In this document: piece by piece, positions 9,533-58,135 of the stretch
Numbering within the stretch: the first letter of the stretch is position 1
How the letters are laid out: the number at the start of each line of letters is the position of its first letter
NCBI GenBank assembly: GCA_025174535.1
Contig: JALBUN010000049.1
Span: forward strand, 1 to 64,000
Direction of reading: 5' to 3'
Length of the DNA: 64,000 nt
Origin: Cantharellus purpuraceus
Lineage: Eukaryota > Basidiomycota > Agaricomycetes > Cantharellales > Hydnaceae
Program-made: the position numbers and the translations under genes
The notes under the pieces: model-generated
Database searches by the model: none
What the model was told of the DNA's origin: nothing
The model's input: only the letters and a program-made list of their open reading frames with translations

Positions 9533-10097
9533 GACGCTTGTTCAGAAATACAACAAATACGTATGTACAACCTATTTTCCTCAAATTTTATACAATACAC
9601 TTCAATTCAAACTTATTTTCATATTTCAACATGATTCTCAAATTTTACACAATATACTAGATTAAAACATATTTTGATATTTTGGCATAATTCTCAAAAA
9701 TAATTGTTTTTTCCCCATTTAGTGGTGGCAACTCCCTTGAGGGAACATCCAAATATCATTGATTCTTTCTTATACAATACTTGTAACATAATTTGAACTA
9801 TCTTTAATCCCCACCTGGTATTTGTATATCTAAATACCCTATATAATACCAATTATATTCATATATACATTCCTATTATATCCATGTAAATAATTATGTT
9901 CATCTCAACCAAATGTCTTATCTTTTAAAGTTTATTAAAATATAGAATATATGTTTATATTTATGAAAATTTCACACATCCAAAATCTTTTAAGATATCC
10001 AAATTGTAACTCCCTGGCTTTATGTATCATTGAAATCCTGATGTATATCTCCTATACATCAGAATATTGTATACTGACATGATTCCGAACAAGCGTC
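9533..10097. mobile_element. MITE-like element, copy C (565 bp)
   Basis: TIRs are GACGCTTGTTCAGAA and TTCCGAACAAGCGTC. The TSD is TAT (9530-9532 and 10098-10100); its right copy includes the first base of LTR-2. It therefore inserted across the left edge of an already present LTR-2. Confidence 0.9.
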
Positions 10098-10576
10098 TAT
10101 GTATGGGAACTGGTTTTCCTTAAAAGATCTTGTTTAAAGTTCCAAAACTGTACAATTTCGCTTCATGGCCTTAAAATATCAGCATATATGTGCTGCTTTC
10201 TCTTGATTCAGGGCCATTCAAATATTCTCTATTTTTTCATATTTTTTTGGGAATTTTCCATGCAGAAATGAGTCTACAAACTTATTGTTCTGATGGGCAA
10301 AGTTTTGGGACCCACATGGACCCACAAACCTTCCCAGATGTCACCAGCCCCAAAGTCAGCCGGAGTCACCCGGACTACTGACTCATTTTCAATCACATGA
10401 CTCATTTTAATCTCCGACTCAATCTGGTCACCACTGCCAGTAAATGCTCAATATCTTCGCAACCACTGCACCTCCTGACTCCATTTTCAGTGGAGAGTTC
10501 AATAGAAGCTGTGCCTACCCATAGCTGTGCTAATCAGCCCGGGAAACGAAGTATTGACCGAGTTATTTGAGTAATG

Positions 10577-10855: not shown

Positions 10856-11629
10856 GAGCCCATTCTGCCTCTGAATAAATAACCATTTTTCTACCCCATC
10901 ATTTGCACATCAGTGTGACTAGAGTGACATACAGTGTCATCCCCTATATCTCAGTAACTGTTGATTGTCCAGTTCAAGGGTCGCTTACAGTTGTGTAACT
11001 GTATTTGATTGCACTCGAAGTAGTGATTGTCCTGCTTTGGGCGTGAGTGTAGTATCTACCTTGCATGACTACGAATCTACAGGGTGAGATTGTCTGTCGA
11101 TAGTCCTGCCATTAGTGCTCTTGTTTAAGTTACTAGTGTGTACTGCCTTTGCAGAGCATTAGATTCTTGAACTCGTGTGAAGCAGTTGCTAGACTACTTC
11201 ACACATCGCTGTTACCCGCTTCAGAGTGTCACTGGTTGGACGGTTGGATTCATCTGCCTACTTCCTCTAGCCTCTAAGTGCATTCCCCCCTTTTTGGAAT
11301 ATCTGGACCCCTAAGCGTCCGTGAACTCTAGACTCTGGAAGTCTTATTATTCCCTACTGCTAAGAAATGTATTACCTTTCTGCGTATAGTCTGCATTGAC
11401 CATTACAACAGATTGTAACCAAAGTACAAACGTTAAATTGTTTCTGGAGTTGTGCTGCAGTAGGATTTGATATTCTTCTCAGCTGTTCATTCAGGGAATT
11501 GTGGTGATTTAGAGTTTGCCCTAACACCATAATTTTGCAGGTTCCAAAACACCTTAATGGAATGCTGCATACATTAATTATGACCATATAACTACATACT
11601 ATAGTAAGTAAGTACCTTGAGTTCTTACA

Positions 11630-11645
11630 CCCTCCCCTTTTTGAA
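11630..11645 (-). other. Polypurine tract of gypsy-A
   Basis: The minus strand reads AAAAAGGGGAGGG directly before the LTR start TGTAAG. The same tract precedes LTR-1 at 41841-41853. It is the plus-strand primer site of LTR elements. Confidence 0.8.
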
Positions 11646-11670
11646 TGAGACATGATCTCATTCAGTACTT

Positions 11671-13521
11671 TTAATCATACAGCTCCTTATGAAGCTGTTC
11701 TGATGAGTCAGTGTCCATATGGTCATCTTGTTCATATGGTTCCAGAGGGGGATGGCTCTCAGTCGTCCCTGACATGGTTGCGGTATCCTCATCCACTTGA
11801 ATGGATGAGGAGGATGCAATTGCTACTGCAGCATCCTGGTCAAGTTCATGATTCAATTGACCATGACCTAAACGCTCAGCAAGAGAGCATTTAGCAGCTT
11901 TATGAGCTGCTTGGGAGCCTCCTTGAGTCTCCTGCTTTTGCTTACCAACCTTAGCAGGCTGGTTAAAAGCTGCTCCAGAGGTGATGTCTAATTCAGTATG
12001 TTCTTTGGGGGAGCAATTCCCCCAATCATATGCCCCGGTGACTGAAGCATGAAAGGTGTCACCAAGAGTTGGTCAGAACTTTTGACCACTGGTCAATAAT
12101 CCCCAGTGGCTGGGATTCTGGAAGATAGTCCAGAGGTTCTTCTTGAATGCAGAAGAACCCTTCTTGGGAGTGGCCTTTTGCAGCCACATCCAGATGTCCA
12201 CATCAGACAAGTTCATAGTACCATCCGACTCCTGTTGGATGGCCAGGGGGACCCCATTATGGTTTACTTGCCACCCCTGTATGAGGGCAAGTGTGTCTAC
12301 TGGTGTGGTCGGTAGAGTGACAATAAGACTCACATTATTAGCGTGAGCCAGCAGAGTCATTCTCTTGATGACTCTGCACATTGTTACAGCCCATTCTGCA
12401 AATGGCATGGCCAAGGCCTTTTTATGGAGTGATATGAACTCCAGAGTGTCCATATCAGAGATGTTGAACCAGTCTGCCCTGATAGGGGTGGACTTGGCCA
12501 GAGGTTGTGGCAGGTGGCCAGTGACTGCTCTGGGAGGGTCAGCTGCAGTCATGAACCATGGTACCCATTTGGGGAATGATTTCCCTGCATTGGCATGCTT
12601 GAGAGCATGCCCAAATCATCCCAGTGTTTGCGATAATTTGTATGCTGGGCTTCTTCCAGCATCTTCAACGCTGGGTCTTTTAATGTATGGCTGGCATCAC
12701 CAGCCATATATTCCTTTTGAAGCTGATCAATCTCAGCTTTGATTTCAGATAGGGCAAACTCAAAGAGTTTGCCTGGTTGCTTAGCACCCTTGGGGATGCT
12801 AGCCAGGAGGAGACCACAACCATGGTTGTATCCCTCCCAGATTGGGTTGGTGTCATCCCAATTTTGACCCTTGAACCCTCAAGGGTTGACCCAAGGCAAT
12901 TTGCTCGGGAGATCGTCCTCTTTGGTGAGGTCGATTGTTTCCTGTGATGATGAAGCCGTGGGTTGTGAAGTCATAATGGCAGGCAATGATTTGCCTGCTG
13001 TAGCACACAATAGTGATGCTACTGGGGCCAAGCACACTGTTGTGAGCTTGGTTTTGAATGTAGGAGGTGCTCTATCAGCAGCCTCCTTCAGTGTCTTTAA
13101 CTTGTTTCTGAGATGAGTTACTTTGGACTTCTCATTGTCAAGAAGTCCTTCGAGTTCTTGGACCTGTGCAAACAGGTCCAAGTTATCCTTGTACATCTTA
13201 TCATAGTCTTCATGATAAGGTGTCGCAACATCATCTTCAATGTCATGTAAGTTGCGGCCACACAACTCTTAATGCTCTTTCCACCAAAGCATTAGAAAGA
13301 TATAGTTGACCCCCATTTTGGGCCTCAATTAAGTGTGACACATATGCATCGCACTTGTTGCACCCATGAGGATGATGGATGGCAGTGCCACCATGCCATC
13401 TGCCAATTTTCCAGGTCATCTCATCTTGATGACCTCTGATCATATCTGCAGAACTTGTTGCTGGTGCTGCCACTGTGGGAGTTTGTTCAACTTCCATCAT
13501 CTCCCTTCTGAGAGATGACAT
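11671..13521 (-). pseudogene. gypsy-A accessory ORF (unknown function)
   Basis: Frames 13521-13243, 13265-12879, 12552-12073 and 11856-11671 read as one protein of about 600 residues with small frame breaks. It starts MSSLRREMMEVEQTPTVAAP. Next come WHGGTAIHHPHGCNKCDAYV with two close Cys, a coiled coil (DLFAQVQELEGLLDNEKSKV), a Ser/Thr linker, a conserved block (PIRADWFNISDMDTLEFISL, LSDVDIWMWLQKATPKKG), a YDWG..PKEHTEL motif and an acidic tail. Two further partial copies (31320-32672 and 40576-41818) show the same order. It sits where env or other third ORFs sit in LTR elements. No signal peptide or membrane segment is visible, so it does not look like an envelope protein. From memory, related hypothetical proteins occur in other Agaricomycetes. 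Confidence 0.6.
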
Positions 13522-13939
13522 TTTGATGGAGGGGGGGGGGGTTGTGGTGGTTCAAAGAAGCACTGCTAGCCTTTTATGGCTGAGCTTGAAAATTCTTTAT
13601 TGAGGATTTTTCCAGTGACTATGTCACATGGGTGTAATGTGATTAATTATTGCTTACCCCTTTTGTGCTACTATGAGTCGATGGTGAACTGCTCCCTATG
13701 GGAGCAGTTTTTTCTGCCATCAAGCTGCCTGTTGTTATGGTAGCTCTATCCTTATCTAGGAACCACCATTAACTGAGGTAGTTCCTCCTCCCCTCATTGA
13801 GCTACTGTCATTGATGGTAGGTCGTTGTTGCATCCCACTAGAAGCTACCTTTATTCTCGGTAGCTCCACTTCTCCCCCTTGAGCCCCATTAGACCTTTGG
13901 GGCTCTGTCTCTCTAAGAACTACTGTCTATGAGGTAGTT

Positions 13940-14584
13940 CTTGCACTCGAGTCACCCCTCAAAGCTCTAAATAATTGTCTAGAGCTTCTAGGTCCTTACA
14001 CAATGTGTAAGGTTCCCAGGTGACATCTCCCAATGTTCATAGAACTTGAAATTCAAGTTCTTTATTGCTTATCCATCAATGAGCCACTCTTGCTTGTCAT
14101 CGTTCCCAACATTGTAAAATGACTTTGCTTCCTGTTTTGGGAATCTCATCTCATCATTCAGCACATATGGTCAAATGAGACTGATGTGGAATGTAGGCAT
14201 AATGTGCCTACTAGTCAGTTCTGGTGGCAGTTCCAGTGTCACTGTTGAAGCTTTATTATGGGCTTCAATTACTTTATAGGGCCTGATATACTTGGGCACT
14301 AGTTCTACCCTTAGGTAGAGTCAAGTTTTTCATTGAGAGGTAGACTTTGTCACCTCTCTGGAAGGTTGAACCTTCCCAACATTTCTTATTGGCATGAAAC
14401 ATCCAAACAACGTGACTTTCTATAATTGCATCATGCACTGCTAGCAGGTTTGTTTGAGCCTGCTGTGTGAATTGTTTGACACCCTTGAACTTGGTGTCAT
14501 TGTTCATGGGCATGCCTATTCTAGGCATATACCCATAGTTAAGCTCAAATGGAGTAAACCCTGTTGTTGAGCTTATGTTGGAGT
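13940..14584 (-). pseudogene. gypsy-A integrase C-terminus and chromodomain
   Basis: Frame 14528-14274 gives MPRIGMPMNNDTKFKGVKQF and GSTFQRGDKVYLSMKNLTLP, the integrase C-terminal barrel. Downstream, in shifted frames, come ELPPELTSRHIMPTFHISL, DDKQEWLID and GDVTWEPYTLCKDLEALDNY, a chromodomain-like C-terminus. The amino-acid sequence of the barrel part is identical to that of the inverted copy at 21687-21936. It is separated from the catalytic core by solo LTR-3. Confidence 0.8.
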
Positions 14585-15979
14585 TGTTTTGGAACCGTGA
14601 ACTTCAACCCAAACTGTGGTGTTAATCACAATCTAAGTTTAGCCCGAGGATGTATGACCTTTCAAGGCTAGCAATAAGCTTGAAACTATTTTAACGGAGA
14701 ACCCAATTGAGAAATTATACTCTGGTGAACAATCACAATCAATGTTGCCACAGGAAGTGAAGTAATAGAGATTTATGCTTGTCACGTGTAGTTCACGCTT
14801 TACTGCTGATGCAATGTAAAGTCAAAGATTGACAGGTGTTCAAGGGTTCAGAAACTTCAAAGGGGGAAGTAACCTAGTGCCTTAGTACTGTGGGTTGAGT
14901 GGATTAAAGCTAACAATAATCCCTTCAACGTAAAAAGATAGATACGCACTTGAACACTTCCTTCTGAACAAGCATATTCACTGTACATGTTTATCCGTGA
15001 TAGAATCAACAGTCAAGGGATATTAATCTCGTCTCAAAGAGGTGAGTTAATAGACTGTGTTGTTGATTTATTGAAATGCCCACAATTGAACCAACCGATC
15101 AATAGCAAAGTACGTGTTAACCTGACTAACCTCAGAGTCTCAATTAAACATGCAGTATTCTTGACCAATCAATAGCCTAGTACAGATTAACCTGACTAAC
15201 CTCAGAGTCTCAATTAAACGTGCAAGATTCTTGATTATAACCAATAGCCTGATACGTGATAATTTGACTAACCTCAGAGTCTCAATTACACATGTAAGGT
15301 TCTTGATCAATGAATAACAATTAATACACTTCAAGTTACTGCTCTGAGTGGGCTTGTAGTGTGTTAATTACTAATCAGTTACTCTGTATTAACCTCTTCT
15401 CCGAGTTTGATTAATATTAGAGCCTGCTGCGCTTGTAATATAATAACTTCTGGCTTCTCCAAGAGTCAATCAAAGTTAATATACACTAAGAGTAGCTGAT
15501 ATAAGCATGATGCTTATGTGATGATTACTCAATGCTTGAGTAGACACTGCTGTGTGTGTGTGGTAAAAAGATCTTATTTTTGCACTGCTGTTGCAGCCCT
15601 TTTTATATACATGGACTATCTAGCTTATGTAACTAATCAGAGAACATTCCTGGCGCTTAGGGAAGCCCCTGGAAGGAAAGAGAAGGCTGGGGAACCTTGT
15701 GGAAGGTCCAGGAAGGTGTCAGAAGCTTCTGTGGCTGCTTTTGGCTGAAGTGCGCGAACTCTGATGATTATGTAATGTGGGCATTGTTCACTCGCGCATG
15801 AGTGCTCGTCGGAGTTGAATGACAGATTATATCAGCAACCGACCCCTTGTGTACACTTGTGGGCTCAAATACACAAAAATGTGAAATATAAGTACATTCA
15901 ATAGAACATTTGGAATACCTTTAAACTACTAAATAATAGTCCTTATTTGAAGTAGTTTAGAACTGCATATACCCCAACA
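14585..15979 (-). mobile_element. LTR-3 (solo LTR, minus)
   Basis: 1395 bp from TGTTTTGGAACC (14585) to ACCCCAACA (15979). The TSD is GGAGT (14580-14584) versus GGAAT (15980-15984), one transition apart. Reading across the gap restores the uninterrupted integrase sequence seen at 21607-21650. A TATATAAAAAGG box lies on the minus strand at 15598-15609. The end motif GGTTCCAAAACA is shared with LTR-2, so the families are related. Confidence 0.9.
15086..15315 (+). repeat. Three ~72-bp tandem repeats in LTR-3
   Basis: Three imperfect copies of a unit containing ctgactaacctcagagtctc, spaced 72-75 bp apart. They lie inside LTR-3, downstream of its TATA box in LTR orientation. Confidence 0.85.
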
Positions 15980-16640
15980 GGAATTTAGTGTGAACTCCAC
16001 CATTGGACACTTGTGTGCCCAATCTTTCTGATCACTTTGTACAATGGTACAAAGTATTTGGCCAATGGAACGATTTGCTCGTTCTGTCACTCCATCCATT
16101 TGCAGATGGAACACTGTGGACATGAGGAGTTTCACTCCCATTATCTGCTGTAGTTCACACCAAAAGATAGATGTGAATTTTGAATCTCAATCAGACACGA
16201 TTGAGTCTGGTACACTGTGAAGGCATATAACTTCTTTAAGGAATAGCCATGCTACTCCTTTCACTGTCACATGCATGTTCGTAGGTATTATATGTACCTG
16301 TGATGTGAAGTGATCTATGACTACCAGTAGGTAGTCATAGTCATTCAATTTTGGTAATGGACCCATAAAGTCCATACCTATCACTTGCCAGGGCCGCTCC
16401 AGCACTGGCAAGCTATGAAGAAGCCCTGTGGGTTTCTTCGCACTGTCTTTATTCATTTGGCACTTCTGGTCATGCCTGGCCACCAGTACAACCGTCAAAT
16501 GTAATTTGTGGTCTTTAGTTGACCAAAATGGCCAACTACTTGGTGTGCATGGTCAATTATTATCTCAACCAGCCTCCTCCCTTCAGGAATGCTGAGTGGG
16601 GTATACAGACGACATTGCATTTGTATATATTTTTGGTCCA
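15980..16640 (-). pseudogene. gypsy-A integrase catalytic core
   Basis: Frames 16498-16187 and 16141-15929 give ERPWQVIGMDFMGPLPKLND (first catalytic Asp), DYLLVVIDHFTSQVHIIPT, DSIVSD (second Asp) and MDGVTERANRSIGQILCTIV (catalytic Glu). A stop and a frame change separate the two frames. Confidence 0.85.
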
Positions 16641-16889
16641 TATTAGACTGTCATGCACACTGAATCATGCATGCTCTTTAGGTGCTTCCAGCACCTTAGA
16701 AAGGACAGTATCCTTTCTATATGTGCCTTGTACAATCTGCATGAGGTTGATCCCATGCTCGACATGGGATTGCAATGGTGTTCTGTCATCATCTGATGAC
16801 ATCACTCCAACATCCTCTATTTCTTTAGAGGAATTAGAATCATAATTCAATGATTCTGTTTGAACATTGAGTGCTTCAGCTTCTAGTGC

Positions 16890-17627
16890 TCTGTTTTCTT
16901 TTTTCTCAAGCAGTCACCTTTGGGTGACTGCTGCTGTCCTGATCTCAATAAACCATTCTGTGGGGGGCAGTTCTCCTTCAGGGTCGAGACGTACATTTGC
17001 ATTCATGTAGATGTAGTTGGGATGACTCTCTGTTGGGGAGTCATCAGTATAGTAGCATGATACAATCCGCTACTTTGTTCTCTACCCCATCTATATGCAG
17101 GGTAGTAAAGTTGAAATGGGATAAGAACTCCCACCACCTAATCTGTCTAGGAGACAGGTTCTTTGGGTCTCAAAGTATTTGAGATCCTTGTGGTCAGCTA
17201 CTAGGACAAACTTTTGTCCTAGTAGCTTATCTTCCCATCTCATTAGGGCTTCAAGCACAGCTATAGTCTCGTGCTCATGGGTCTTATAGTGCTGTTATGC
17301 AGCACTAAATTTCTTGGATAGAAATCTGGCAGGCCAACAGGTCTGCCAATCTTTTCCTTGCCCATAGATGGCTCCAACTCCAGTTTTGGAGCTGTCAGTA
17401 ATAAGCCAAATAGTATTGGGATTATTAACATTGATGGGCTTCAATATTGGAGCCCTACACACTAGGAGCTTGATGCTTTTGAAGCATTTCTCCAGCAGCG
17501 GTGTCCATAAGAATGGATGATTATTATGAGCACAACCCAATAAAGGGGTTGTGTATGCAGTTATATCTGGCATATAGTGTGCCAGATACTGCACTAGTCC
17601 AAGAAAATGTTGGACTTCATGGTACAA
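16890..17627 (-). pseudogene. gypsy-A RT connection and RNase H
   Basis: Frame 17627-17295 gives VQHFLGLVQYLAHYMPDI and IWLITDSSKTGVGAIYGQG (the RNase H first Asp). Upstream coordinates continue HEHETIAVLEALMRWEDKL and LVADHKDLKYFETQ, then QIRWWEFLSHFNFTTLHIDG after a one-base shift. These are standard gypsy RNase H landmarks. Confidence 0.85.
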
Positions 17628-17639
17628 CCTAGGTCATCT

Positions 17640-18340
17640 CCACTCTCATATTTGCTACATTTTATCAGTGTCTGCATGCACACCTTGGTCATTTATTAGG
17701 TGACCAAGGCAATCCATACTTGTTGAGTATAGATTGATCTTATCCTTGCTCAGGAACATATGTGCTTTCCTGAGCTCAGTGAATACCATCTCTAGGTGGT
17801 GTTCGTGCTCTCGTATAGTACGAGAGTACACAAATATGTTGTCCAGATATACATGGACGAATCTTCTGATATATTCTTGAAAGATGGCAGTCATGAGTCC
17901 CTGAAATGTTGAGGGGGCATTGCAGTCCCCTTGCTGCATGACTTGACTGACAAATGTCCCCAAGATGGTTGCAAACACCATCTTGGGTATATCCATCAGT
18001 CTGACATATCTGTTTGCATGCCTCAGACGTATCAAGTTTAGATCGATATGTACAGCAGGCAACATCGTGGCTGATGTTGTCCTGATTGGGGAAGGGCGTT
18101 ATGTCCTTCACCGTATTATCATTCTGTTTGTGCAAGTCGAACACAGTGCAGAGCTTCCCATTTTTTTGGGAATGCATAGCATTGGTACAGCCTGCCAGGC
18201 TGTAGCCAATAACCACCATTTAGCAGTGGTGTATCACAGAACTTTCTCTGAAAGTTCTGCTCAGTAGTGCTTTGGACACTTAGGCAAGCAATAATGTATT
18301 CACTTGTCAGGATCCACAAGATTAATCTCATGGTTAACTT
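17640..18340 (-). pseudogene. gypsy-A reverse transcriptase
   Basis: Frame 18065-17655 covers the palm: VSQVMQQGDCNAPSTFQGLM, then FVHVYLDNIFVYS, then LRKAHMFLSKDKINLYS and MDCLGHLINDQGVHAD. The catalytic box reads YLDN (codons at 17838-17849, the last AAC) where YLDD or YVDD is usual. The N-terminal fingers (18219-18070) are in another frame. Confidence 0.85.
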
Positions 18341-18699
18341 CCCTAAATGGGGGAAGTTCTAAGGGTATGCTGCCAAATAGGTCAGTGTACATTTCTTTCC
18401 ATTGATTTCTCAACTGAGGGATCTGACCAGCTGTGTAAGCAGTTGATCCTTAACGAGATGAAGCTATTCACATCATGCTCTTATTTGGATCCTCCATTGG
18501 GGGGTCCTTTACTGAGTCTAGTCCTTTTTTTAGGAAGGACTGCATTGTGGGTAGCTCATGTTTAGAGTTACCCCCTTGGTGTCATTTATTCATGCCAATA
18601 ATCCTTCTTCATATTGAGTTTATACCCCATGACAGGGTACAAAGAGCATCAGTATTATGCTCTTCATTGGTGGGGACTTCTTCAGTTTCCATCATGATT

Positions 18700-19020
18700 T
18701 GGCCTGGGCCATTAATGTCCAGGCATATTCCTAGCTTTCATAGGAATGGGGTGCTGAGTATTACATCGTAATACTCAATGTTGGTGATATCAAAGTATTC
18801 TTCAATGTCCCAACTACCAAACTTTATGGTAGTGTGAGTACCATAATTTATGGTACTCCTGCTCCCAACACACACTAATTGCAGTGCGATGGGTTGCTCT
18901 AGCGTGAAGGTTTTCATACCTGTTACAGGTGTGAATTCAGGGGATATCATTATCCTGTCACTCCCACTGTCTAATAGACAGTGAGCTAGTGTTCCACCAA
19001 TCTCCCAATACCCAGAGATT
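18700..19020 (-). pseudogene. gypsy-A aspartic protease
   Basis: The minus strand reads LLDSGSDRIMISPEFTPVTG, with the catalytic DSG at 18963-18971, followed by SRSTINYGTHTTIKFGSWDI and YYDVILSTPFL, the ILGTPFL-like C-terminal strand. The upstream linker is frame-broken. Confidence 0.8.
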
Positions 19021-19439
19021 GTTTTATTGTCTATGTGTGGTCTATCTGGTCATGCTGTCAACTTCTGTTGGCTCCTATGATTATACATAGGTTTGGCTAA
19101 TCTGTCAACACTGACAGCAGCTATATGTGGCTGTCATGATTCCCTGCTTGTTGGGAATCTTGTTGCACTACAGAAATGCACTGCATAGGTGTGCTTCAGT
19201 TTCAATAATTGGGTCGAATTCATATCACATTAGAGCAATACATTGGTGTAGCCTCCTTTTCGGGGATGTCATCTTGGTCATCCCATTCATCAGCCACTTC
19301 TATAGCTGGCATTTTTTTGTCTAGATGGTCCTTGGGATCATCCATTGCTTCTTCATGTTCTCCCTCTATGGGGAGAATCCATCTACATTGTCCTCCACTA
19401 TGTGTGAGGACATGTCCTTTCAGACTGCAGCCGACCTTA

Positions 19440-21300
19440 CATTGCCCTTTAGTTTGGGGCAGCTGGATCACATGTGACCTGTCTGGCCACATTCATAGCA
19501 CACAATGTTACTAGTAACGTTGTTCGATCAATCACCACTCATGTGTGCTGGTGGTTTCAATTGATAATTACCCTTGAAAAGGTAATTGTTGGAATTGGAC
19601 CTGGAGCTTCCATTACAGGGTTCCAACCTTGACACACTTGCTTGTCATGAGTATGTGTTGGGAGCCATATACATGCATCCATGGGGTGTGGGGTGACTCC
19701 CTGTATTCATCATACCAGTAGTTTAATTGACTACTGGTCTATGGGTTGAGGAGGACGTGTTAGTCGCATTCTCCAGGCATTGCATACTGTGGTGGTATCA
19801 TATCGCTTCCTCTATCATTTGAGCAGTTTCGTACAACTGCTCGATACTGCTAAACTCGGCATTGAAGCCCTTCTTGAGGACTTCTTGTCTCAGAGGTTTG
19901 CGCATTGCAGTTACAAACCTCTTCCTGTACATGTATGCGTCTGGCAGCATTATCACGCAACCCACATACTTATCTAGGTCGTTCATTAATTCATGAATGG
20001 TCCTTTGACCCTGTATTACAGAGTCAAATTTATTTGATGCATGGTGATGTGTCAGAGTGTGTAAGAATCTACGTTGCAATCCTTGGATTGCAGTTTCCAG
20101 GGTCCAGTCTTGACTGCCCTATCATAGTGTTCTACATTCCTGTAGAACCATTCCTGGGCCTCACCTTTGAGGTGAGTGCCTAAGTACAATAGCTGAAACT
20201 TTGTACTTGATGGCCCTAGGAGATTATTCATCTTCAGCCATCGTAGCATACCTGCTACAAAGATCTTGAACTCTTTGAGATCTGTGCCTCCTGCATATTG
20301 CTCAGGAGGTGATACTTTAATGCCCACCTTGGCAAGTACAGACTTCTCTGGGTCTGTGTCTCTATTATTGACTATGGCTACTTGCACCATGCGAGTAATG
20401 CTGTTGATAGGATCAATTGTGTCCAATTGATCTGGTATGCCTTGACCTTCTTGGGTCAATGGTGCTGATTGTTCCTTGTTATGGGGAACGTCTTCTTGAA
20501 GTACCCATTGGGTATCTTGTTGTTCATGGTGGGTGTCTCCTGAAAGGCCTGCCACTTGTACATGCTGATAACTGTTCAGTGCATGTCACAACTGTCGATT
20601 TAAATTGACAGCCACATTGAGCTCTTGCTGGGGCCACTGCTCTCTAAACATCTGGCTGAGCTCCTGCTCTGTATGTTTAGCCTTCTGTTCGAGGGCTAAT
20701 CTATGTTTACAAGAAGCCTCAACTTCTCATTGTTTCCATAGCTTGATCTCTTGATCGAGCTCCTTTGCCATAGATTGAGGAGTTTCCTCTTCAATCTGGA
20801 TCAGTAATCCTTGCCTCACTGGGATTACTGGGTCTCTAATTCCCTCCATTGGGGGAATTTCTGTCTAACTGATCATTCAGTTGGACCCTCTCACCCCAGG
20901 GAGGTCCAGACTCTCCGGATTCAGATTCTTGTCAAGAATCTGATCTTTGGCGATGTGACTTGCATCGCTCAGAGTTCTCTTGGAGTGATTTTAACATTGT
21001 TCCTAGCTCTGAAATTTGCTGCCCCATAGTAGTGGCAGCATACCCTGCTTCAGCAGCCATCTTAGCTGCCTGAGCACTAGCTTTGCTAATGCTCTTCATC
21101 TCATATTGATTATGCATGAGTTGTTCAGTCAATCTTGTGATTGACCTGTGGGTTACACACCGCTCTGTGCTGCACGATTCCCTAGTAGAAGTATTGCTAC
21201 TTCTACTTGCTACTTGTACTTGTGCTCATATATTGAGCACGTTCCTTTCCTTTAAGAATGTTGGAGACAGTGGATGACTGTCTCCTCCTTTCTTCTCTAA
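19440..21300 (-). pseudogene. gypsy-A gag
   Basis: The N-terminal helical part includes MHNQYEMKSISKASAQAAKM (21132-20932). The capsid part, 20555-20052, reads KVSPPEQYAGGTDLKEFKIF, LGTHLKGEAQEWFYRNVEHY. The next frame (20079-19798) continues RRFLHTLTHHHASNKFDSVI to the end of the capsid. A zinc knuckle at about 19461-19502 reads CYECGQTGHM, a stop, then SSC. The stop is a TGA where Arg (CGA) is expected. Confidence 0.85.
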
Positions 21301-21475
21301 TCAAAGAACCACTTGATGAAGGGTTCTTGTTTGACAGACGATCTATTGTGCAATTGTCTGTGCAGTCTCATGATCGTGGCAACTCTCTTCTAGAGTCTTC
21401 TTTACGAGAAGTCCCTATGACTTCTCTAGGGATTATACTTATATGTTATAGTAAGTAAGTACCTTGGGTACTTAC

Positions 21476-22295
21476 AGAAACTCCTCATGTCCACAGTGTT
21501 CCATCCACAAACAGATGGAGCAACGGAATGAGCAAATCGTTCCATTGGCCAAATACTTCATACTGTTATATGAAGTGATCAGAAAGATTGGGCACACAAG
21601 TGTCCAATGGTGGAGTTCACACTAAACTCCAACATAAGCTCAACAACAGGGTTTACTCCATTTGAGCTTAACTATGGGTATATGCCTAGAATAGGCATGC
21701 CCATGAACAATGACACCAAGTTCAAGGGTGTCAAACAGTTCACACAGCAGGCTCAAACAAACCTGCTAGCAGTGCATGATGCAATTATAGAAAGTCACGT
21801 TGTTTGGATGTTTCATGCCAATAAGAAATGTTGGGAAGGTTCAACCTTCCAGAGAGGTGACAAAGTCTACCTCTCAATGAAAAACTTGACTCTACCTAAG
21901 GGTAGAACTAGTGCCCAAGTATATCAGGCCCTATAAAGTAATTGAAGCCCATAATAAAGCTTCAACAGTGACACTGGAACTGCCACCAGAACTGACTAGT
22001 AGGCACATTATGCCTACATTCCACATCAGTCTCATTTGACCATATGTGCTGAATGATGAGATGAGATTCCCAAAACAGGAAGCAAAGTCATTTTACAATG
22101 TTGGGAACGATGACAAGCAAGAGTGGCTCATTGATGGATAAGCAATAAAGAACTTGAATTTCAAGTTCTATGAACATTGGGAGATGTCACCTGGGAACCT
22201 TACACATTGTGTAAGGACCTAGAAGCTCTAGACAATTATTTAGAGCTTTGAGGGGTGACTCGCATGCAAGAACTACCTCATAGACATAAATGCAG
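21476..22295 (+). pseudogene. gypsy-A integrase fragment, inverted copy
   Basis: Plus-strand copy of the integrase Glu region, C-terminal barrel (21607-21936) and chromodomain, nearly identical to the reverse complement of 13940-14584 plus 15980-16130 but without LTR-3. It begins at the base after the partial LTR-1 start of the minus-strand element, giving a head-to-head (fold-back) junction at 21475/21476. It stops at 22295 next to copia-1. Confidence 0.85.
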
Positions 22296-22561
22296 TGTTA
22301 GATTATTTAGAAACTCAGAGAAGCTTCCTCGTACTGCTCCGCCAAATTGGACACCTCCCTCGCCATCACTTTCACCATGCCGTCCCCATCCATAGTAGCC
22401 ACATATACTAACAGAACCCCCATCTGAGCAACGCCGCAGGAGTTGCGCCTTTGCGCATTTCTACACCTGTGATCTGGGTTAGAAACATAGAAAAAACTAT
22501 ATTATTACTTTTAGGCGGAGCTTAGAATTTACAGTGAACTCATACTATGTCAGAATATACT

Positions 22562-23233
22562 CTACTTTTTAACACTCCCACTCCAGTGAACTGTCATTCC
22601 CAACTTCAAGACAAAATGTTCATGTTTCACCTTCCCAAGGCTTTCCGTCATAATATCCACTGTCATCTCATTTGTTTGGCAATATCTGACCTGTAATTGA
22701 CCGGATGCGACCACTTCTCTGATATAATGGTATCTCACTGCGATATGCTTCATTCACAGATGATTTCCAGGATTCTGAATTAACGTGAGAGCTCCCTGGT
22801 TGTCACATTGCAGTTCTGTGGGTTCATTCTGTTTGTGTCCAAGTTCATCCAGTAATTGTCTGAGCCAGATTGCTTCTTGAGTGGCATGACTTGTGGCAAT
22901 ATACTCGGCTTTGGTACTTGACAGTGTGGGTGAAGATTGGATCTTACTGCTCCAGCTAACCGCAGCGCCTCCCATCAGAAACACATAGCCTGCAGTTGAT
23001 TGACGAGTATCCGTATTGCCAGCCCAGTCTGAATCTGAGTATCCATGCAGAAGTTGCAAGACAAGTCCACCATCCATTGCATTTGAGTTGCACCTCAATA
23101 TGTGGTCTCTGGTTCCAATGAGGTAACGTACTATGCGTTTTGCTTCAAGCCAGTGCCATTGTCCTGGGTTTGTGGTGAATTTGCTTAGTGTTCCCACAGC
23201 AAATGCAATATCAGGCCGTGTTCCTAGCATCAC
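22562..23233 (-). pseudogene. copia-1 RT end and RNase H
   Basis: Frame 23254-22754 gives MLGTRPDIAFAVGTLSKFTT, HGYSDSDWAGNTDTRQSTAG (RNase H Asp), SSTKAEYIATSHATQEAIWL (Glu) and LQCDNQGALTLIQNPGNHL. Frame 22753-22562 continues MKHIAVRYHYIREVV and CQTNEMTVDIMTESLGKVKH, the usual copia C-terminus. Apart from the frame break between these two ORFs the region is well preserved. Confidence 0.9.
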
Positions 23234-23471
23234 CCACATCAATCCTCCAACCACATCAATCCTCCAACCACATCAATCCTCCAACCACATCAATCCTCCA
23301 ACCACATCAATCCTCCAACCACATCAATCCTCCAACCACATCAATCCTCCAACCACATCAATCCTCCAACCACATCAATCCTCCAACCACATCAATCCTC
23401 CAACCACATCAATCCTCCAACCACATCAATCCTCCAACCACATCAATCCTCCAACCACATCAATCCTCCAA
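23234..23471 (+). repeat. 17-bp minisatellite, 14 copies, inside copia RT
   Basis: Fourteen near-perfect copies of ccacatcaatcctccaa. On the coding strand the unit is ttggaggattgatgtgg, which encodes the conserved GGLMW block of copia RT. Because 17 is not a multiple of 3, each repeat shifts frame. The flanks on both sides are the normal RT sequence. Confidence 0.95.
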
Positions 23472-23884
23472 TGAGGTTTGCATATGGTGTCTTCTTCATC
23501 TCATTTATCTCCACTGACGATGTTGGACAGTCATCCACAGATAATTTGGTGCCGGCAGTGAGCGGGGTTGGTGCAGGCTTGGCATTGGTGAGTCCAAAGC
23601 ATGCTCCCAACTCCTCGAGTTTGTGACAGCATGATGGCCCCTTTCTCACAGGTGATTTGCATGCCAAGGATGTACCTTGCATCTCCAAGGTCCTTCAGTT
23701 TGAATTGCTCGCCCAGGTGTGTTTTGTGCATTCGCATGGTTGTGAGGCAGTTTCTGAACATGAGCATATCATCAACATATACCGCCAAGTAGACTATGGC
23801 ATCTCCATGTTGAAAGACATATATGCAAAAGTCAGAGTTGCAGTGGTGATACCCAATTTGCTCCAAAGCAGAGTTCAGTAGGTC
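23472..23884 (-). pseudogene. copia-1 RT palm with YVDD
   Basis: Frame 23929-23531 contains SALEQIGYHHCNSDFCIYVF, AIVYLAVYVDDMLMFRN (YVDD at 23768-23779), LGEQFKLKDLGDARYILGMQ, then in another frame NAKPAPTPLTAGTKLSVDDC. The catalytic motif is intact. The 5' half of RT lies beyond the solo LTR-5. Confidence 0.9.
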
Positions 23885-24422
23885 TGTTATGACTATATTC
23901 ATTAACACCCAGATCCCCATCCGATCCACTCAGATCCCCACACATATGAAATCTATACTCCATTTGGAAACCGCTACATCTCCATTTACCTGTCCGATTG
24001 TCACCGCCGATTCCGCCCATCCACCTCTGGTTCCGATTGATGCATCAGCATCACCATAGGAACCCGGACATCCGTCCCCGTCGGACTTGGACATACTCAT
24101 GTAGGGCCGTCAGCCTCGGAGACCCATCACCGGAGTAATTATTATTAGATTTCAAATATGTATTTAAGTTGCCCGACTGGGGACTTCATTCCCAGTTCAA
24201 TATCGAATCACGCCTAGCTCCTACATCCGATCCTAACTCTCTAAGTCATGCTCCGTCTCCGAAATCTCGGACACTGGTATTAGTGAGGGCGCAGCACATA
24301 AGCTGAAGCCAAGTCCGTTCCGACCCCCACGATGTACTCCGACCCCGACCCAACCTCCGACCCTAACTCCAACCCAACCTCCGATCCAAACTCCGACCCC
24401 CAATCAGACCTAGTGCATAACA
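23885..24422 (+). mobile_element. LTR-5 (solo LTR, CpG-rich copy)
   Basis: 538 bp from TGTTATGACTATATTC to TAGTGCATAACA with TSD AGGTC (23880-23884 and 24423-24427). It splits the copia RT frame exactly between WNDL and LNSALEQIG. It keeps many CpGs (ccgacccc, gcccgactgg) that are TG/CA in the other LTR-5 copies, so it looks recent or unmethylated. Confidence 0.95.
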
Positions 24423-25585: not shown

Positions 25586-25591
25586 TGGGCT

Positions 25592-26494: not shown

Positions 26495-26798
26495 TGGCTT
26501 CTATGACTGTTGCATCACCAAGGGGAATAAGGATTGGTTTCGCGAGGACAGTAAATGAAGATTCGTCGAACCAGTTGCGGTGTGGGCTCATGTGTTGGGA
26601 ACACCCTGAGTCTATGAAGGAATCATCAGTTGACACTTTTGCAAGGTTTGCCATTATATCCATAGCAACAAATACATGGATTTTGTCATCATGCAGGGGA
26701 TTAGAATGGGCGATTGACCAGACAGCAACCATGTTGGCATGCTCTGAATTGGAGTCGCTAGAAGCCTCCACTGCATTTGCCTGGGTCTTGTCGTTCAT
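26322..26798 (-). pseudogene. copia-1 protease region
   Basis: Frame 26798-26322 contains DDSFIDSGCSQHMSPHRNWF with the DSG catalytic triad and TLPDTLYVPELAATLISLT, the standard copia protease end. It is preceded by a gag zinc-knuckle-like CKYPGHTEDKC-type run on the opposite side of a frame break. Confidence 0.85.
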
Positions 26799-27650: not shown

Positions 27651-27842
27651 AGGGCAATGCACAGGGCAGGTGATCTTGAGCGATTAGCGGTCCCCGGGGC
27701 CCATAACCTATTGAAATCGGAAATCTAGTCGGGGCGCAGGCGACGACGTTGAGAACAGAAAAAACTACATTATTACTTTTAGGCGGAGCTTAGAATTTAC
27801 AGTGAACTCGTACTATGTCAGAATATACTCTACTTTTTAACA

Positions 27843-29235: not shown

Positions 29236-29239
29236 CTAA

Positions 29240-31152: not shown

Positions 31153-31319
31153 CAGATACGTTAGGGGGCAGATGCGGATTGGTACACACTAGGTTCCATT
31201 TTTTTATATGATATAGTGGGAAGAGATGAGACGGACACGTTGATAAGAGAATTCAAGGGAGATCGCAACTCTTTGGCAGTGTGCACTGGCAGCAGCCATC
31301 AAGTTGCGTGCACTACTTA

Positions 31320-31604
31320 TATGGGTTGGGTATCATGAGAACCCGTGTAGGCAAGCATGCATGTTGCAGGGTCAACCAAAGGTGATAACCCCATGGTGAA
31401 ATGTGAAGAACAATGATCCAAGGTCATCAAGAAGAGATGACCTGGAAGATCAGCGGATGGCTTGGAGGTGCTGCCATCTATCACCCTCACAGGTGCAAAA
31501 AGTGTGATGACTATGTCTTGCACTTAATTGAGGCTCAGAAAGGGAGCTGACCATACCTCTCCACTGCTTCGGTGGAGAGAGCTTTGAGAACCGCATGGCT
31601 GCAG
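31320..31604 (+). pseudogene. gypsy-A accessory ORF fragment, 5' part
   Basis: The plus strand reads GHQEEMTWKI-like sequence, then AAIYHPHRCKKCDDYVLHLI and a degenerate VERAL block, homologous to 13521-13243. Ends at the TGCAG target site of the solo LTR-4; the ORF resumes at 32203. Confidence 0.8.
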
Positions 31605-32202: not shown

Positions 32203-32672
32203 TTGATTCCTGACATTGAAGATGATGTCACTAGTGCTCATCATAAGGATTATGATAGGCTGTTCAAGGACAACTGGAACCTGTTCATACAGGTTCAAGA
32301 ACTTGAAGGATTTCTTGAACAGGAGAAATCCAAGGTAACTCATCTGAAGGATGGGTTAAAATTATTCAAGGAGGCTGCTGCTAAAGTGCCTCCTACATTC
32401 AAGACCAAGCTCACAACAGTGCTCTTGGCCCCAGTAGCACTGTCATCATGCACTATGGCAGGCAAACCGTTGCCTGCCATTAAATCATCTCAACCTGTGG
32501 CATCATCATCATGGGAAATGATCAACCTTACTAAAGAGGACAATCACCTGAGCGAACCACCTCAGATTGACCCTTGAGAACTTGAGGGTCAAGAATGGGA
32601 CAATACAGACCTGATATGGGAGGATTACAACCATGATTGTGGTCTCCTCCTGGCTAGCATCCCCAAGGGTGC
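32203..32672 (+). pseudogene. gypsy-A accessory ORF fragment, middle part
   Basis: Frame 32197-32577 gives the coiled-coil part (NLFIQVQELEGFLEQEKSKV) and EAAAKVPPTFKTKLTTVLLA, homologous to 13265-12879 but diverged. Hairpin stems match the other copies with paired base changes (32275-32298 and 32308-32331). Ends at an LTR-2. Confidence 0.85.
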
Positions 32673-34105
32673 TGTTTTGGAACCCGCAAAATTATGGTGT
32701 TAGGGCAAACTCTAAATCACCACAATTCCGTGAATGAACAGCTGAGAAGAATATCAAACCCTGCTGCAGCACAACTCCAGAAACAATTTAACATTTGTAC
32801 TTTGGTTACAATCCTTTGTATTGGTCAATGCAGACTATATGCAGAAAGGTAATACATTTCTTAGCAGCAAGAAATGAATAAGACTTCCAGAGTCTAGAGT
32901 TCACGGACGCTTAGGGGTCCAGATATTCCAAAAAGAGGGGAATGCACTTAGAGGCTAAAGGAAGTAGGTGGATGAATCCAACCGTCCAACCAGTGGCACT
33001 CAGAAGCGGGTAACAGCGATGTGTGAAGTAGTCTAGCAACTGCTTCACACGAGTTCAAGATTCTAATGCTCTGCAAAGGCAGTACACACTAGTAACTTAA
33101 ACAAGAGCACTAATGGCAGGACTATCGACAGACAATCTCACCCTGTAGATTTGTAGTCACGTGAGGCAGATACTACACTCACACCCAAAGCAGGAATATC
33201 ACTACTTCGAGTGCAATCAAGTACAGTTACACAACTGTAAAAGATCCTTGAACTGGTAATCAACAGTTACTGAGATAGAGGATGACACTGTATGTCACTC
33301 TAGTCACACTGGTGTGCAGAAGATGGGTAGAATATGATGGATATGTTTCTATTTCAGAGGCAGAATGGCCTCCTTATATATTGTATTTACAGGGGCTGAC
33401 TAATGCTTCTGGAATATTCTACCTATTAATAGATGGAAGCTACTGGAAGGTTGTGGAAGGTGGAAGAAAGGGGTAGAATATTCCAAGCCAATCACAGGTT
33501 CTGATCACTGCATTAACACTGATCAGGAGCTGAATAATGGTTCTGGAAAGTTCTATCTAATAATAGAAGGAAACAGCTAGAATGTTATGGAAAGGGGTAG
33601 AATATTCCAAGGCAATCACCTGATTTGATCATCCATCAGCTGATCTGATCCCTGAACTAGGCACTGATCAGGCAAAAAGAAGGGTGTCCACCCTGTTTTC
33701 TGCACTGGTTTGGACAGCCATGGATAGCCACATCTCAGGTGATGATCTCCATGGAAAATGGTGCCCTGAGAGGCTGTGGTTGTCAAGTTAGAGAATATTT
33801 ATTGATCAGAGACATCTGAGCTTGAATTCAGGCCAAATGCCTGGTCCAAAGGTGGAGAGCCGGCTGTGTGAAGGTTTGTGGGTGCCTATGGGTCCACAAC
33901 TGTAGCACAGCAGAAATAAATGATTCTGGGCCGAGTTCTGCATGGAATATTCCCAGAAAAATATGGAAAAATAGAGAATATTTGAATAAGTCCATTCCAG
34001 GTACAAGCACCAACTATATGCTGATATTTAGGAATGGAAAAGCAATGTATAGCACATTGGTGCTGCATAAATAGGATTTGATAGGGAAAAGGTGGTCCCC
34101 ATACA
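32673..34105 (-). mobile_element. LTR-2 copy 3 (minus, diverged)
   Basis: 1433 bp from TGTTTTGGAACCCGC to CCCCATACA. The first ~600 bp match LTR-2 closely, the middle (33290-34000) is diverged and lacks the clear TGACTC array of copies 1, 2 and 4. Flanks ggtgc and tcagt do not match, so it is not a simple insertion. Confidence 0.8.
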
Positions 34106-40524: not shown

Positions 40525-40575
40525 TGTAAGTACCCTAGGTACTTACTTATGGTAAAATATTATAGATATATACTG

Positions 40576-41818
40576 TAACTCATTTCAAGGATGAGTTAAA
40601 ATCACTTAGGGAGGCTGCAACAAAGGCACCTCCTATGTTCAAAACCAAGCTCACAACAATGTGCTTGGCCCCAGTAGCACCTTCACCACATGCTATGGCA
40701 GGCAAATCATTGCCTGCCACCATTCCCTCACTACCCATGACCTCATCATCACAGGAAATAATTGTCCTCACCAAGGAGAATGATCATCTGGGCAAACTGC
40801 CTCAGATTGACCCTCAAGGTTCAAAAGTCAAGATTGGGATGATACCAACCACAAATGTGGGGAAGTCCTTCCCCAACTGGGCACTGTGGTTTCTAACTGC
40901 AGCTGACCTCCCCAGAATGGTCACAGGCCACTTGCCTCAACCTCTGGGCAAGTCCATCCCTATTAGGGTGGACTGGTTTGATATTTGTGATACAGACTCT
41001 ACTGAGTTCATATCATTGCATAAAATGGCATTGGCCACTCCATTCACAGAATGAACAGTGCCAATGTGCAGAGTCATTAAAAGAATGACTCTGCTGGCTC
41101 ATGCTGACAATGTGAGTCTTATAGTCACTCTACCAACTATGCTGGTAGATACACTTGCCCTCATACAGGGGTGGCAAATAAACCCCCACAGGGTGCCTCC
41201 AGCCATCTGATGTGGATATCTGGATATGGCTCCAAAAAGCCACTCCTAAGAAAGGTTCTTCTGCATTCAAGAAGAACCTCTGGGCTTTGTTCCCAGACTA
41301 CTGGCCACTGGGAATCCTTAACCAGTGGCCATAGGTTCTCACCAATTATTGGTGACTCATTTCACACTTCCATCATGGGAGTGTATGATTGGGGAGATTG
41401 CCCCCCCAAAGAGCACACTGAATTGGAGCTTGCACTCTGGCTTGGGCAAATGGGAGGTATCACCCCCATTCATGCTGCCCTCCTAGAGGTGTTTGTAAGT
41501 GGCATTTCCTCTGAAGATGCATTCAACCAACCCACCAGGGTTGGTAAGCAGAAGCAAGAGACTATAGGAGCCTCTCATGCAGCCCAGCAAGCTGCTAAAT
41601 ACTCTCTAGTGGAGTGTTTGGGTCATGATAAACTAAATTGTGACCTTGATTGAGACACCACCTTAGTGATTGCCTCTTCCTCATCCATCCAATTGGATGA
41701 GGATGCTGCAATGATGTTGGGGATGACTGAGAACCATCCCCCTCCAGAGCCATATGATCAAGACAATCATATGGACATGGACTCATCCAAACAGCTCCAT
41801 AAGGAGCTGTACAACTAA
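40576..41818 (+). pseudogene. gypsy-A accessory ORF, third copy
   Basis: Frame 40635-41054 gives FKTKLTTMCLAPVAPSPHAM, PNWALWFLTAADLPRMVTGH and PIRVDWFDICDTDSTEFISL. Later frames give MGVYDWGDCPPKEHTELELA and GKQKQETIGASHAAQQAAKY, then an acidic tail. Stops separate the parts. It allows comparison with 11671-13521 and shows a longer YDWG-region than that copy, which seems to have a deletion there. Confidence 0.75.
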
Positions 41819-41853
41819 TTGGTGAATGAGGTCATGCCTCAAAAAGGGGAGGG

Positions 41854-42123
41854 TGTAAGTACTCTAGGTACTTACTTACTGTAGACTAATATAAATATAT
41901 ATGTATTAGTATATACAGCATTCCCTTAAGGAATGCTGTTCTCTTGGTAGTATATGTGCCCATGGGGTGCATATATATATCATTATTATATAATCAGTGG
42001 ACCCAAGTATACATGTGGGTCCACATGTAGAAAGACTAAAACACCACACTTTACAGCATGTAGCACAACCAATAAGACTTGGTTGAGTTCCATGTTTGTG
42101 TGAACTAAGTCACCAAACTTACA
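41854..42123 (+). mobile_element. LTR-1 (complete, 270 bp)
   Basis: Runs TGTAAGTACTC to CCAAACTTACA. It is itself made of hairpins: GTAAGTAC/GTACTTAC, CAGCATTCC/GGAATGCTG, GTGGACCC/GGGTCCAC, AACCA/TGGTT. It follows the polypurine tract. Confidence 0.8.
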
Positions 42124-53130: not shown

Positions 53131-53149
53131 GTATATTCAAACTGCTGTA

Positions 53150-57172: not shown

Positions 57173-57413
57173 TTAGATTGGTCACCACCTACATGAGTTG
57201 GTGGTTTCAATTGATAATTACCCTTAGGGGGGTAATCATTAAAATTAAATCTGGAGCCACTGCTACGGGGTTCCAGCCTTGGCACACTCACTTGTCATGA
57301 GTGTGTATTGGGAGCCATATACACACATCCATGGGACATGGGTTGGCTTCCTGCATTGGCTACACCAGTAGTTCTATGGACTACTGGTCTATGAGCCAAG
57401 GAGGATGTGTTCA
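57173..57413 (-). pseudogene. gypsy-A gag fragment
   Basis: Matches 19540-19760 in the same orientation. The hairpin ACCAGTAGT/ACTACTGGT (57364-57388) is kept with a different loop from 19714-19738. Confidence 0.8.
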
Positions 57414-57775: not shown

Positions 57776-58135
57776 TCTTCCTCTTCTGCTTCTGTAGACT
57801 AACTAAGTTAGTCTACTAGTTGCTCACTTGTGTGAGTGACTGGGGGGTGTTGGTACATGTCTGTACACCAGCAACAGCTGGTTTTCTAGCACTGGCTAGA
57901 AAACTTCAATCAGAAGGAAGAATCAACTGATTCTTTCTATGGAAGTTCAAAAATGTGTAAGGTTGTGACTTAGTTCACACTGACACAGAACTCGACCAAA
58001 TTTATTGGTTGTGCTATGTACAATATGATGTGGTTAAAATCCAAGTTTTTTTTAACTACATGTGGACCCACATGTATACTTGGGTCCACTGATTATATAA
58101 AAACTGTATATATGGGTGCATATAGCTGTCAAGAC
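57776..58135 (-). mobile_element. gypsy-A leader and partial LTR-1 (minus)
   Basis: 57956-58135 matches the end of LTR-1 in minus orientation (CTTACA end at 57956; GTGGACCC/GGGTCCAC hairpin). 57776-57955 is hairpin-rich leader: TAGACTAAC/GTTAGTCTA and GTTTTCTAGC/GCTAGAAAAC, showing that the tiling also covers untranslated sequence. Confidence 0.7.

Follow-up and report, generated by a model that had tools for sequence, protein, structure and literature searches.

Genome-scale ordered RNA structure (GORS), known from RNA viruses, is described in the cited portions of the literature (PMC7642675, PMC3950689) as hundreds of consecutive, mostly unbranched stem-loops along the genome, in which uninterrupted duplexes of more than 14 pairs are avoided, paired sites are less diverse and the pairings themselves are poorly conserved. 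The retrotransposon family analysed here, one copy of which lies in the 64,000-nucleotide stretch of Cantharellus purpuraceus DNA under study (the window), has a comparable series of unbranched stem-loops with almost no duplex above 11 pairs, a reduced diversity at paired sites and a folding energy far below that of shuffled sequences. In fact, the folding excess reaches 36%, whereas SARS-CoV-2 has about 15% and the highest virus value quoted in the cited part of PMC7642675 is 23.4%, the methods being slightly different. The family departs from GORS in that its stems mostly occupy the same columns at 72–80% identity, in lacking a sense-strand preference and in being an LTR retrotransposon and not an RNA virus.

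A second parallel is found in hairpins generated by template switching, which, in the section cited (PMC8794818), have perfect Watson-Crick stems and can acquire multibase compensatory changes. The perfect arms are found in the family, whereas frequent compensated pairs, several of them adjacent, are not. These hairpins are described for RNA genes and DNA replication, while here a reverse transcriptase would have to do the switching, and G-U pairs are involved in 78.5% of two-step compensatory changes in the same source, unlike the family, which has no G.U preference and few compensated pairs. Ty3 and other Ty3/gypsy elements share the domain order and LTRs with the family, and Ty3 RNA is likewise structured, with a well-folded core; however, the abstract of that study (PMC11381356) reports no element-wide tiling, and the sister and contaminant gypsy elements that we tested lack it. 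Judging by title and abstract opening, a hairpin-tiled retrotransposon is described in none of the matches listed from the open-licence literature.

Element organization and hairpin density

The window copy (11552-21476, minus strand) is split by a foreign insertion of 1.4 kb (Table 1). Its protease, reverse transcriptase, RNase H and integrase follow the Ty3/gypsy order, the RVP_2, rve and Ty3_capsid matches being under cut-off but in place, and the extra ORF has 10 protein relatives, all from JGI. In other Agaricomycetes, the nearest relatives of the reverse transcriptase and extra ORF stand at about 60–80% amino acid identity. The sequence TGTAAGTA begins both ends of the copy, whose two LTRs are truncated and have 43 nt in common at 84%. 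In another copy, L056, the LTR is about 276 nt long, its end being placed by eye, and the sequence directly behind the LTR in L056 and L057, where a tRNA primer-binding site would be expected, starts without TGG, as judged from the letters. Between 11400 and 22400 there was no Rfam match at the gathering threshold.

Table 1. Coordinates of the element, its parts and related features in the window
Feature	Position	Strand	Basis or remark
3' part of hairpin-tiled Ty3/gypsy-type element: integrase region end, extra ORF region	11552..14585	-	alignment to other genome copies
3' LTR remnant	11629 down to 11552	-	within 3' part of element
Extra ORF open piece, behind integrase	12073..12615	-	no Pfam match at E 0.1
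Example hairpin	13157..13182	-	11-bp arms, loop 4
Foreign insertion, outside family	14586..15979	.	alignments of other copies lack it here
5' part of element: leader, gag, protease, RT, RNase H, integrase	15980..21476	-	
Integrase-like piece	16187..16552	-	Pfam rve E 0.02, under cut-off; position after RNase H
RNase H piece	17295..17633	-	Pfam RT_RNaseH_2 E 7e-9, over cut-off
Reverse transcriptase piece	17655..18098	-	Pfam RVT_1 E 5.7e-17, over cut-off
Aspartyl protease-like open piece	18738..19049	-	Pfam RVP_2 E 6.4e-4, 20.0 bits vs cut-off 20.3
Gag-like open piece	20052..20585	-	Pfam Ty3_capsid E 0.009, under curated cut-off
5' LTR remnant, 43 nt	21476-21434	-	at element's 5' end
Inverted fragment of same family, adjoining element 5' end	21477..22286	+	99.5% complementary to 13924-14585 over 662 nt
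Diverged family fragment w32k, first piece	31413..31589	+	80% identity to L020; 3 repeats vs 0.6
Diverged family fragment w32k, second piece	32211..32673	+	78% identity; 7 repeats vs 1.3
w41k, diverged, internally deleted relative without pol	40525..42121	+	76-78% identity; LTR sequence at both ends
Diverged family fragment w57k	57173..57411	-	75% identity; 4 repeats vs 0.8
10-bp leader hairpin, in diverged LTR/leader fragment	57881..57904	-	same hairpin in leaders of L056 and L057

Perfect inverted repeats (arms of at least 6, loop of 3–15) were counted against dinucleotide shuffles. The family copy, insertion excluded, contains 139 such repeats where shuffles hold about 24, and 55 against 1.7 when arms of at least 8 are considered. 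For arms of at least 6/8/10, the 3' part holds 51/20/4 (shuffle means 8.9/0.6/0.0, maxima 20/3/2 of 100 shuffles) and the 5' part 88/35/9 (15.5/1.1/0.1, maxima 27/4/2 of 100), whereas the insertion is near background (6/0/0 vs 4.0/0.3/0.0); the end-to-end tiling put forward in the preliminary description thus applies to both element parts but not to the insertion between them. All seven hairpins cited there hold a perfect inverted repeat, at 12592-12611 (8-bp arms), 12686-12708 (9), 12753-12773 (9), 13125-13148 (8) and 16034-16055 (9), in addition to the two listed in Table 1, although the leader hairpin, for all its perfect arms, sits in a separate diverged fragment and not in the copy named gypsy-A. 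Within 15 open pieces of this copy (5295 nt), codon-preserving shuffles average 22.4 repeats (sd 4.1, maximum 36 of 200) against 88 observed and, for arms of at least 8, 2.5 (maximum 8) against 33. As had been noted by eye, such tiling is not seen in a stretch of gypsy-B (55500-56400), which gives 6/0/0 vs 2.8/0.1/0.0 (maxima 8/1/1). Since the counts exceed both codon-preserving shuffles and gypsy-B, the density no higher than either that had been named as fatal to the claim is not what is found. Chance, base composition or codon usage, which has next to no probability, does not account for an effect this large: the observed counts lie above every one of the 200 codon shuffles and, in both element parts, above every one of the 100 dinucleotide shuffles. 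All that leans its way is that sister ORFs lie slightly above codon shuffles (43 vs 27.7 for arms of at least 6, maximum 39 of 200). A small general hairpin excess therefore exists in the gypsy elements of this genome.

Other family members are dense as well, namely the adjoining inverted fragment (14/4/0 vs 2.4/0.1/0) and the pol-less w41k (24/13/6 vs 5.4/0.4/0), whose LTR end was judged by reading to lie at about 42123. Elsewhere in the window, 22287-31400 is near background (21/4/1 vs 25.9/1.6/0.2), as is 42122-57100, slightly over it (53/6/1 vs 40.8/2.5/0.2, maximum 51). In the genome, 46 family segments have 17.8 hairpins per kb vs 4.1 in the flanks of the same loci, and 2–6 per kb are found in sister gypsy families and in 12 other gypsy contigs. 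The latter, recovered at 29–42% identity on searching genome contigs for relatives, were taken as contaminants and used only as background; no DNA of relatives in other organisms was found in viral contigs. Among reverse transcriptase matches at 52–70% amino acid identity, those fetched are decayed copies at 81–89% DNA identity, except L037, which has no nucleotide match to L020 and a background hairpin density. The long ORF of L042, which seemed to be a nested chimera, was set aside.

Stem architecture and strand symmetry

Copies were aligned on L020 in 95 rows, of which 77 at 84% identity or more constitute the main set (including L020 and the near-identical window and L009 copies), five at 81–84% belong to neither set and 13 are under 81%. 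The aligned copies have 182 stems of 7–12 pairs, covering 49% of 8.68 kb. Stem length drops steeply above 11; indeed, in single copies only 3 of 1729 perfect hairpins have longer arms, the longest being 14. A hairpin every 35–50 bp had been proposed, and the median centre spacing in fact is 39 nt (IQR 30.5–57.5), but regularity is no greater than chance (gap CV 1.04 vs random 0.99, 5–95% 0.88–1.11). Stems occur at 19.6 per kb inside mapped ORFs and 18.7 per kb outside, the latter class including decayed coding sequence unmapped by the open pieces of the window.

The folding-energy excess of L020 averages 35.7% on the sense strand (minimum 14.5%, 48 fragments) and 33.8% on the antisense strand, against 3.5–5.1% in sister families. 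Fixed single mismatches in stems comprise 7 G.T, 14 A.C and 15 others, and a sense-strand preference for G.U over A.C, sought in three ways, was absent. The structure is not confined to the sense RNA, the strand on which GORS resides, and selection on sense RNA alone, one form of the cause initially suggested, does not agree with these figures. The lack of both a G.U preference and a sense-over-antisense excess is unlike ordinary RNA-level selection. An alternative is that the hairpins are written during replication, the reverse transcriptase folding the nascent strand back on short quasi-palindromes, copying one arm from the other and returning to the template, so that imperfect repeats become perfect blind to coding and selection just purges harmful ones. 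Strictly Watson-Crick stems, random spacing and a density that does not differ between mapped ORFs and the remainder speak for this possible but less probable origin. Template switching is described as capable of producing perfect stems and of fixing them (PMC8794818, portion cited). Likewise, stems are evenly distributed over the codon registers (33/31/36) where synonymous choice alone would favour other registers (123/397/516); however, sites within one change of a stem are already nearly even (25/28/17), which weakens the register as proof of coding-blind stem birth. Also, codons of conserved reverse transcriptase residues deviate in 0 of 18 cases in stems and 0 of 24 elsewhere, against what such writing would predict.

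Packaging signals of other retroelements are borne on stem-loops, which lends some support to a reading of the hairpins as many discrete RNA signals, for example Gag-binding ones. This is very improbable, given about 180 sites with random spacing, no G.U preference and no common motif in the loops listed, 36 of them with three bases and 35 with four.

Divergence of stems, loops and spacers

Sequence divergence was compared with CpG-type sites excluded, in four pairs of diverged copies, using stems defined in the main copies, and in a set of nine diverged-copy comparisons. In the four pairs, stems differ by 5.5% vs 15–21% elsewhere between w41k and L040, by 5.2% vs 14–20% between L040 and L041 and by 4.4% vs 10% between w41k and L041, so that in these three related copies the difference is 2–4 times below that of loops and spacers; in the fourth pair, w32k-L035, it is not significant. 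Over the nine comparisons (L013 and L010, both under 81% identity, being excluded here, from the compensated-pair count and from stem-column sharing), stem constraint is significant in four and not in five, and those with slow stems have lineages in common. The proposed selection on RNA or single-stranded DNA structure is therefore backed by three of four pairs and weakened by five of nine. Slower change of paired stretches in several comparisons suggests that folding is preserved by something. In agreement, of 51 perfect stems in diverged copies, 44 join columns that are also paired with each other in the main copies, and the pol-less w41k retains its hairpins. The other seven stems are not shared with the main copies, most differing by few bases. 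Against selection, main stems of at least 8 pairs are paired below 70% in a diverged row in 14 instances, a count without denominator.

Compensated pairs number 13 of 599, at 8 positions (L038 and L039 in this count being parts of L040 and L041), and only one adjacent two-pair change is seen. Under ongoing hairpin writing about half of new stem mutations would be compensated, an estimated 80 or more of 599, and unbiased correction does not predict stems less diverged than spacers; furthermore, indels between copies are mostly private deletions, with no clear birth event or pattern. Template switching, also suggested initially, thus retains Watson-Crick perfection, codon indifference and a single compensatory change of two bases that includes a transversion (L020 columns 8177-8183), but is opposed by the scarcity of compensated pairs. 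Selection has against it the random spacing of the stems and a weak covariation, the A2 score being reached by 5 of 500 shuffles and A3 by 154 of 500, part of it CpG decay.

Slow stems without G.U preference are also what would be expected if paired bases were less mutable in RNA or single-stranded DNA and persisted without selection. Such a mutational shelter is unlikely: stem origin is left unexplained, transitions and transversions alike are reduced about 3-fold in stems relative to other sites (counts that carry ascertainment bias), which speaks for selection and is unlike the expectation from deamination, and pairing is kept in 13 double changes and lost in 1, though these events are few.

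Proposed maintenance of the architecture and its significance

We consider, with a probability of roughly 50%, that the hairpin architecture is inherited and strand-symmetric and has been maintained by selection, that it resembles GORS and that template switching perhaps wrote it first. One Ty3/gypsy lineage would have gained it along the whole nucleic acid, including genes, leader and LTR, as some 180 short unbranched Watson-Crick stem-loops of 7–12 pairs per element, common to the subfamilies examined, and selection would have retained the stems for as long as the element remained active. Both the RNA and, to the same extent, the single-stranded cDNA would form one short stem after another. 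By analogy with RNA viruses, the likeliest benefit may be that the nucleic acid is shielded from annealing and from being recognized by the host, which in a fungus would concern antisense pairing and RNA silencing, the stems being too short for long dsRNA. A combined account is somewhat less probable again than hairpin writing alone: the lineage's own replication would write perfect short palindromes all along the element, irrespective of its genes, proteins and LTRs would have adapted to them, and selection would keep the products as folded RNA and cDNA evade silencing.

Pervasive genome structure, known from RNA viruses, here belongs to an LTR retrotransposon of a fungus, and its signal exceeds the virus values compared. 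A tiled family beside untiled sisters in one genome offers a natural comparison for the purpose of such structure and for selection versus template switching. These results indicate that coding sequence can bear hairpins over half its span with conserved reverse transcriptase residues still in place.

Element and family copies

The hairpin-tiled family (gypsy-A) is represented by an element whose reverse transcriptase (RT) and RNase H pieces pass the Pfam cut-offs, while its protease, integrase and capsid matches are sub-threshold, yet in the expected order; the region of an extra ORF lies downstream of integrase and the element has LTR remnants at either end. In the genome searched (40.15 Mb, 50 contigs), one family stretch has at least 41 matches (40 candidates scored), the leader at least 40 (40 scored) and RT at least 150 (150 scored), over half of the latter being assigned to this family by our own reading. 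The copies display a mixture of CG, TG and CA at identical sites, which indicates CpG decay. RT has 235 protein relatives; among the 120 listed, the best has 80% identity over 80% of the query, and Sphaerobolus stellatus (63%) is the sole fungal name, a match compatible with the preliminary description's placing of the host among the Agaricomycetes. The extra ORF has 10 relatives, from JGI only.

Repeat features in the window
Feature	Position	Strand	Basis or remark
Degenerate Ty3/gypsy-type element	11552-21476	-	Pfam matches, domain order, LTR remnants
Foreign piece (1.4 kb) interrupting the element	14586-15979
Diverged family copy (w32k)	31413-31589 + 32211-32673
Pol-less, internally deleted family relative (w41k)	40525-42121		LTR sequence at either end
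AT-rich repeat, five copies	5804-5867, 8394-8457, 10035-10098, 52756-52819, 54016-54079		Own inverted repeat, TGATGTA..TACATCA type
Tandem repeats, units of 15, 17 and ~30 nt	56538-56912, 23180-23519, 2711-3043

Stretches of contig C17 (G000:C17:688450-698449 and 717550-718131) are near-identical to window positions 11375-21377 and 40570-41940 (99.6% over 10 kb, foreign insertion included; 100% at the C17 contig end), and perhaps represent an allele or a segmental duplicate. At loci L056 and L057 the sequence behind the 5' LTR does not start with TGG; self-priming of reverse transcription is possible there, and would be of interest in a hairpin element.

Hairpin density, folding and coding sequence

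All seven hairpins cited in the preliminary description (7/7) contain perfect inverted repeats, and the two element parts in the window hold 16-17 per kb versus about 3 in shuffles. Pooled over 20 loci, the family's 46 segments (96,978 nt) contain 17.8 per kb (7.8 with arms ≥8 and 2.03 with arms ≥10), against 4.1, 0.88 and 0.14 in the non-family sequence that flanks them (101,553 nt). The excess also holds against codon-preserving shuffles, with 88 hairpins observed in 15 open pieces versus 22.4 expected. ORFs of sister gypsy families from the same genome have a small excess (43 versus 27.7, maximum 39 in 200 shuffles; arms ≥8, 3 versus 2.5), and the remaining window ORFs contain 18 versus 17.1 (arms ≥8, 3 versus 1.05). 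Background densities of 2.2-6.0 per kb come from 12 further gypsy contigs, three loci of sister families and locus L037, whose own shuffles give 2.0-6.4. The w41k relative carries 24, 13 and 6 hairpins (arms ≥6, ≥8, ≥10) versus 5.4, 0.4 and 0 in shuffles, and bins around the AT-rich repeat copies hold 6-10 short hairpins per kb.

In 350-nt fragments the mean folding-energy excess over dinucleotide shuffles is 35.7% sense and 33.8% antisense in the reference copy L020, and 32.5% and 32.1% in the window copy; sister elements reach 5.1% and 3.5%, and window genes at 45.6-49.6 kb -2.8%. For scale, SARS-CoV-2 stands at about 15% in PMC7642675, where shuffling and step are slightly different, and the top value recorded at that time is put at 23.4%.

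Projected on L020 (≥7 pairs in most copies, one mismatch allowed), 182 stems cover 49% of 8,680 nt, with 36% of bases in arms; 53, 50, 39, 26, 12 and 2 stems have 7 to 12 pairs respectively, with loops of 3-14. Mapped ORFs carry 19.6 stems per kb and the sequence beyond them, which includes decayed coding sequence, 18.7; as first described, hairpins reach beyond genes, being found also in the LTR and leader of L056. Inter-stem gaps match random placement, with no regular spacing. The stems occupy the three codon registers as 33/31/36 (n=100), while 7-bp sites reachable by synonymous choice alone in the window's own proteins number 123/397/516, so that register 0 is over-used (P 7.7e-10). However, sites needing at most one change in the hairpin-poor sister ORFs number 25/28/17, and register use thus fits any near-palindrome-based process. 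Conserved columns of a 130-residue RT piece of L020 are covered by stems to much the same extent as variable ones (44% and 40%), and at columns conserved ≥85% deviating codons are 0/18 in stems and 0/24 elsewhere.

Stem conservation, covariation and origin

Perfect stems (arm ≥7) of diverged rows (<81% identity to L020) pair the same columns as in the main copies (≥84%) in 44 of 51 cases and fail to do so in 7; in 14 instances a main stem (≥8 pairs) is paired below 70% in some diverged row. When main copies are set against diverged ones, differences at the third codon position number 38/352 in stems, 51/130 in loops and 155/500 between stems, a contrast biased to low stem divergence since stems were defined in the main copies. 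Comparing diverged copies among themselves is cleaner, and the three strongest pairs, which have lineages in common, evidence slower stem change: w41k-L040 (stems 10/182, loops 18/85, between 41/269; P 2e-4), w41k-L041 (7/160, 7/67, 24/234; P 0.03) and L040-L041 (8/154, 13/66, 31/216; P 0.001). For w32k-L035 the slowdown is not significant (16/130 versus 29/149, P 0.14). The nine comparisons made with a second alignment include four significant ones, namely these three and w32k-w41k (9/84 versus 35/163, P 0.04), and L035-w41k, L035-w32k and three L020-fragment comparisons are not.

Covariation is modest in A2 (score reached by 5/500 shuffles; both sides changed in 20 pairs versus 17.6) and absent by pair count in A3 (154/500), and CpG decay accounts for part of the pair-count signal; conservation is thus the stronger signal. 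Double changes are compensated in 13 of the 599 pairs and fall at 8 positions; one further double change does not pair. The 57 single changes in stem pairs divide into 19 G.T, 19 A.C and 19 other. Were sense RNA the selected molecule, G.U should exceed A.C; fixed single mismatches (≥8 pairs) show no such excess, at 7 G.T, 14 A.C and 15 other (shuffle means 1.0, 1.3 and 5.8), and the G.U tolerance predicted under sense-RNA selection alone is not observed. Together with the near-equal folding in sense and antisense, these counts make the pattern strand-symmetric, which DNA-level writing or joint selection on RNA and cDNA would predict. Hints of strand or stability are that loops are A-rich (39%) and that C-G closes them more often than G-C (52 versus 22); sister ORFs are likewise A-rich (34%).

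Of the two causes initially proposed, perfecting of hairpins by template switching during reverse transcription is the main rival, at clearly less than even odds, and a possible origin; as correction alone it predicts, by our estimate, far more compensated pairs than those counted. The other, selection on RNA or ssDNA structure, is adopted for maintenance: we give about even odds (roughly 0.5) to a hairpin architecture along the entire element, kept by selection, that would function as genome-scale ordered RNA structure does. By analogy with structured viral transcripts, which according to PMC3950689 induce a weaker interferon response in fibroblasts, the hairpins may shield the nucleic acid of the element from fungal silencing.
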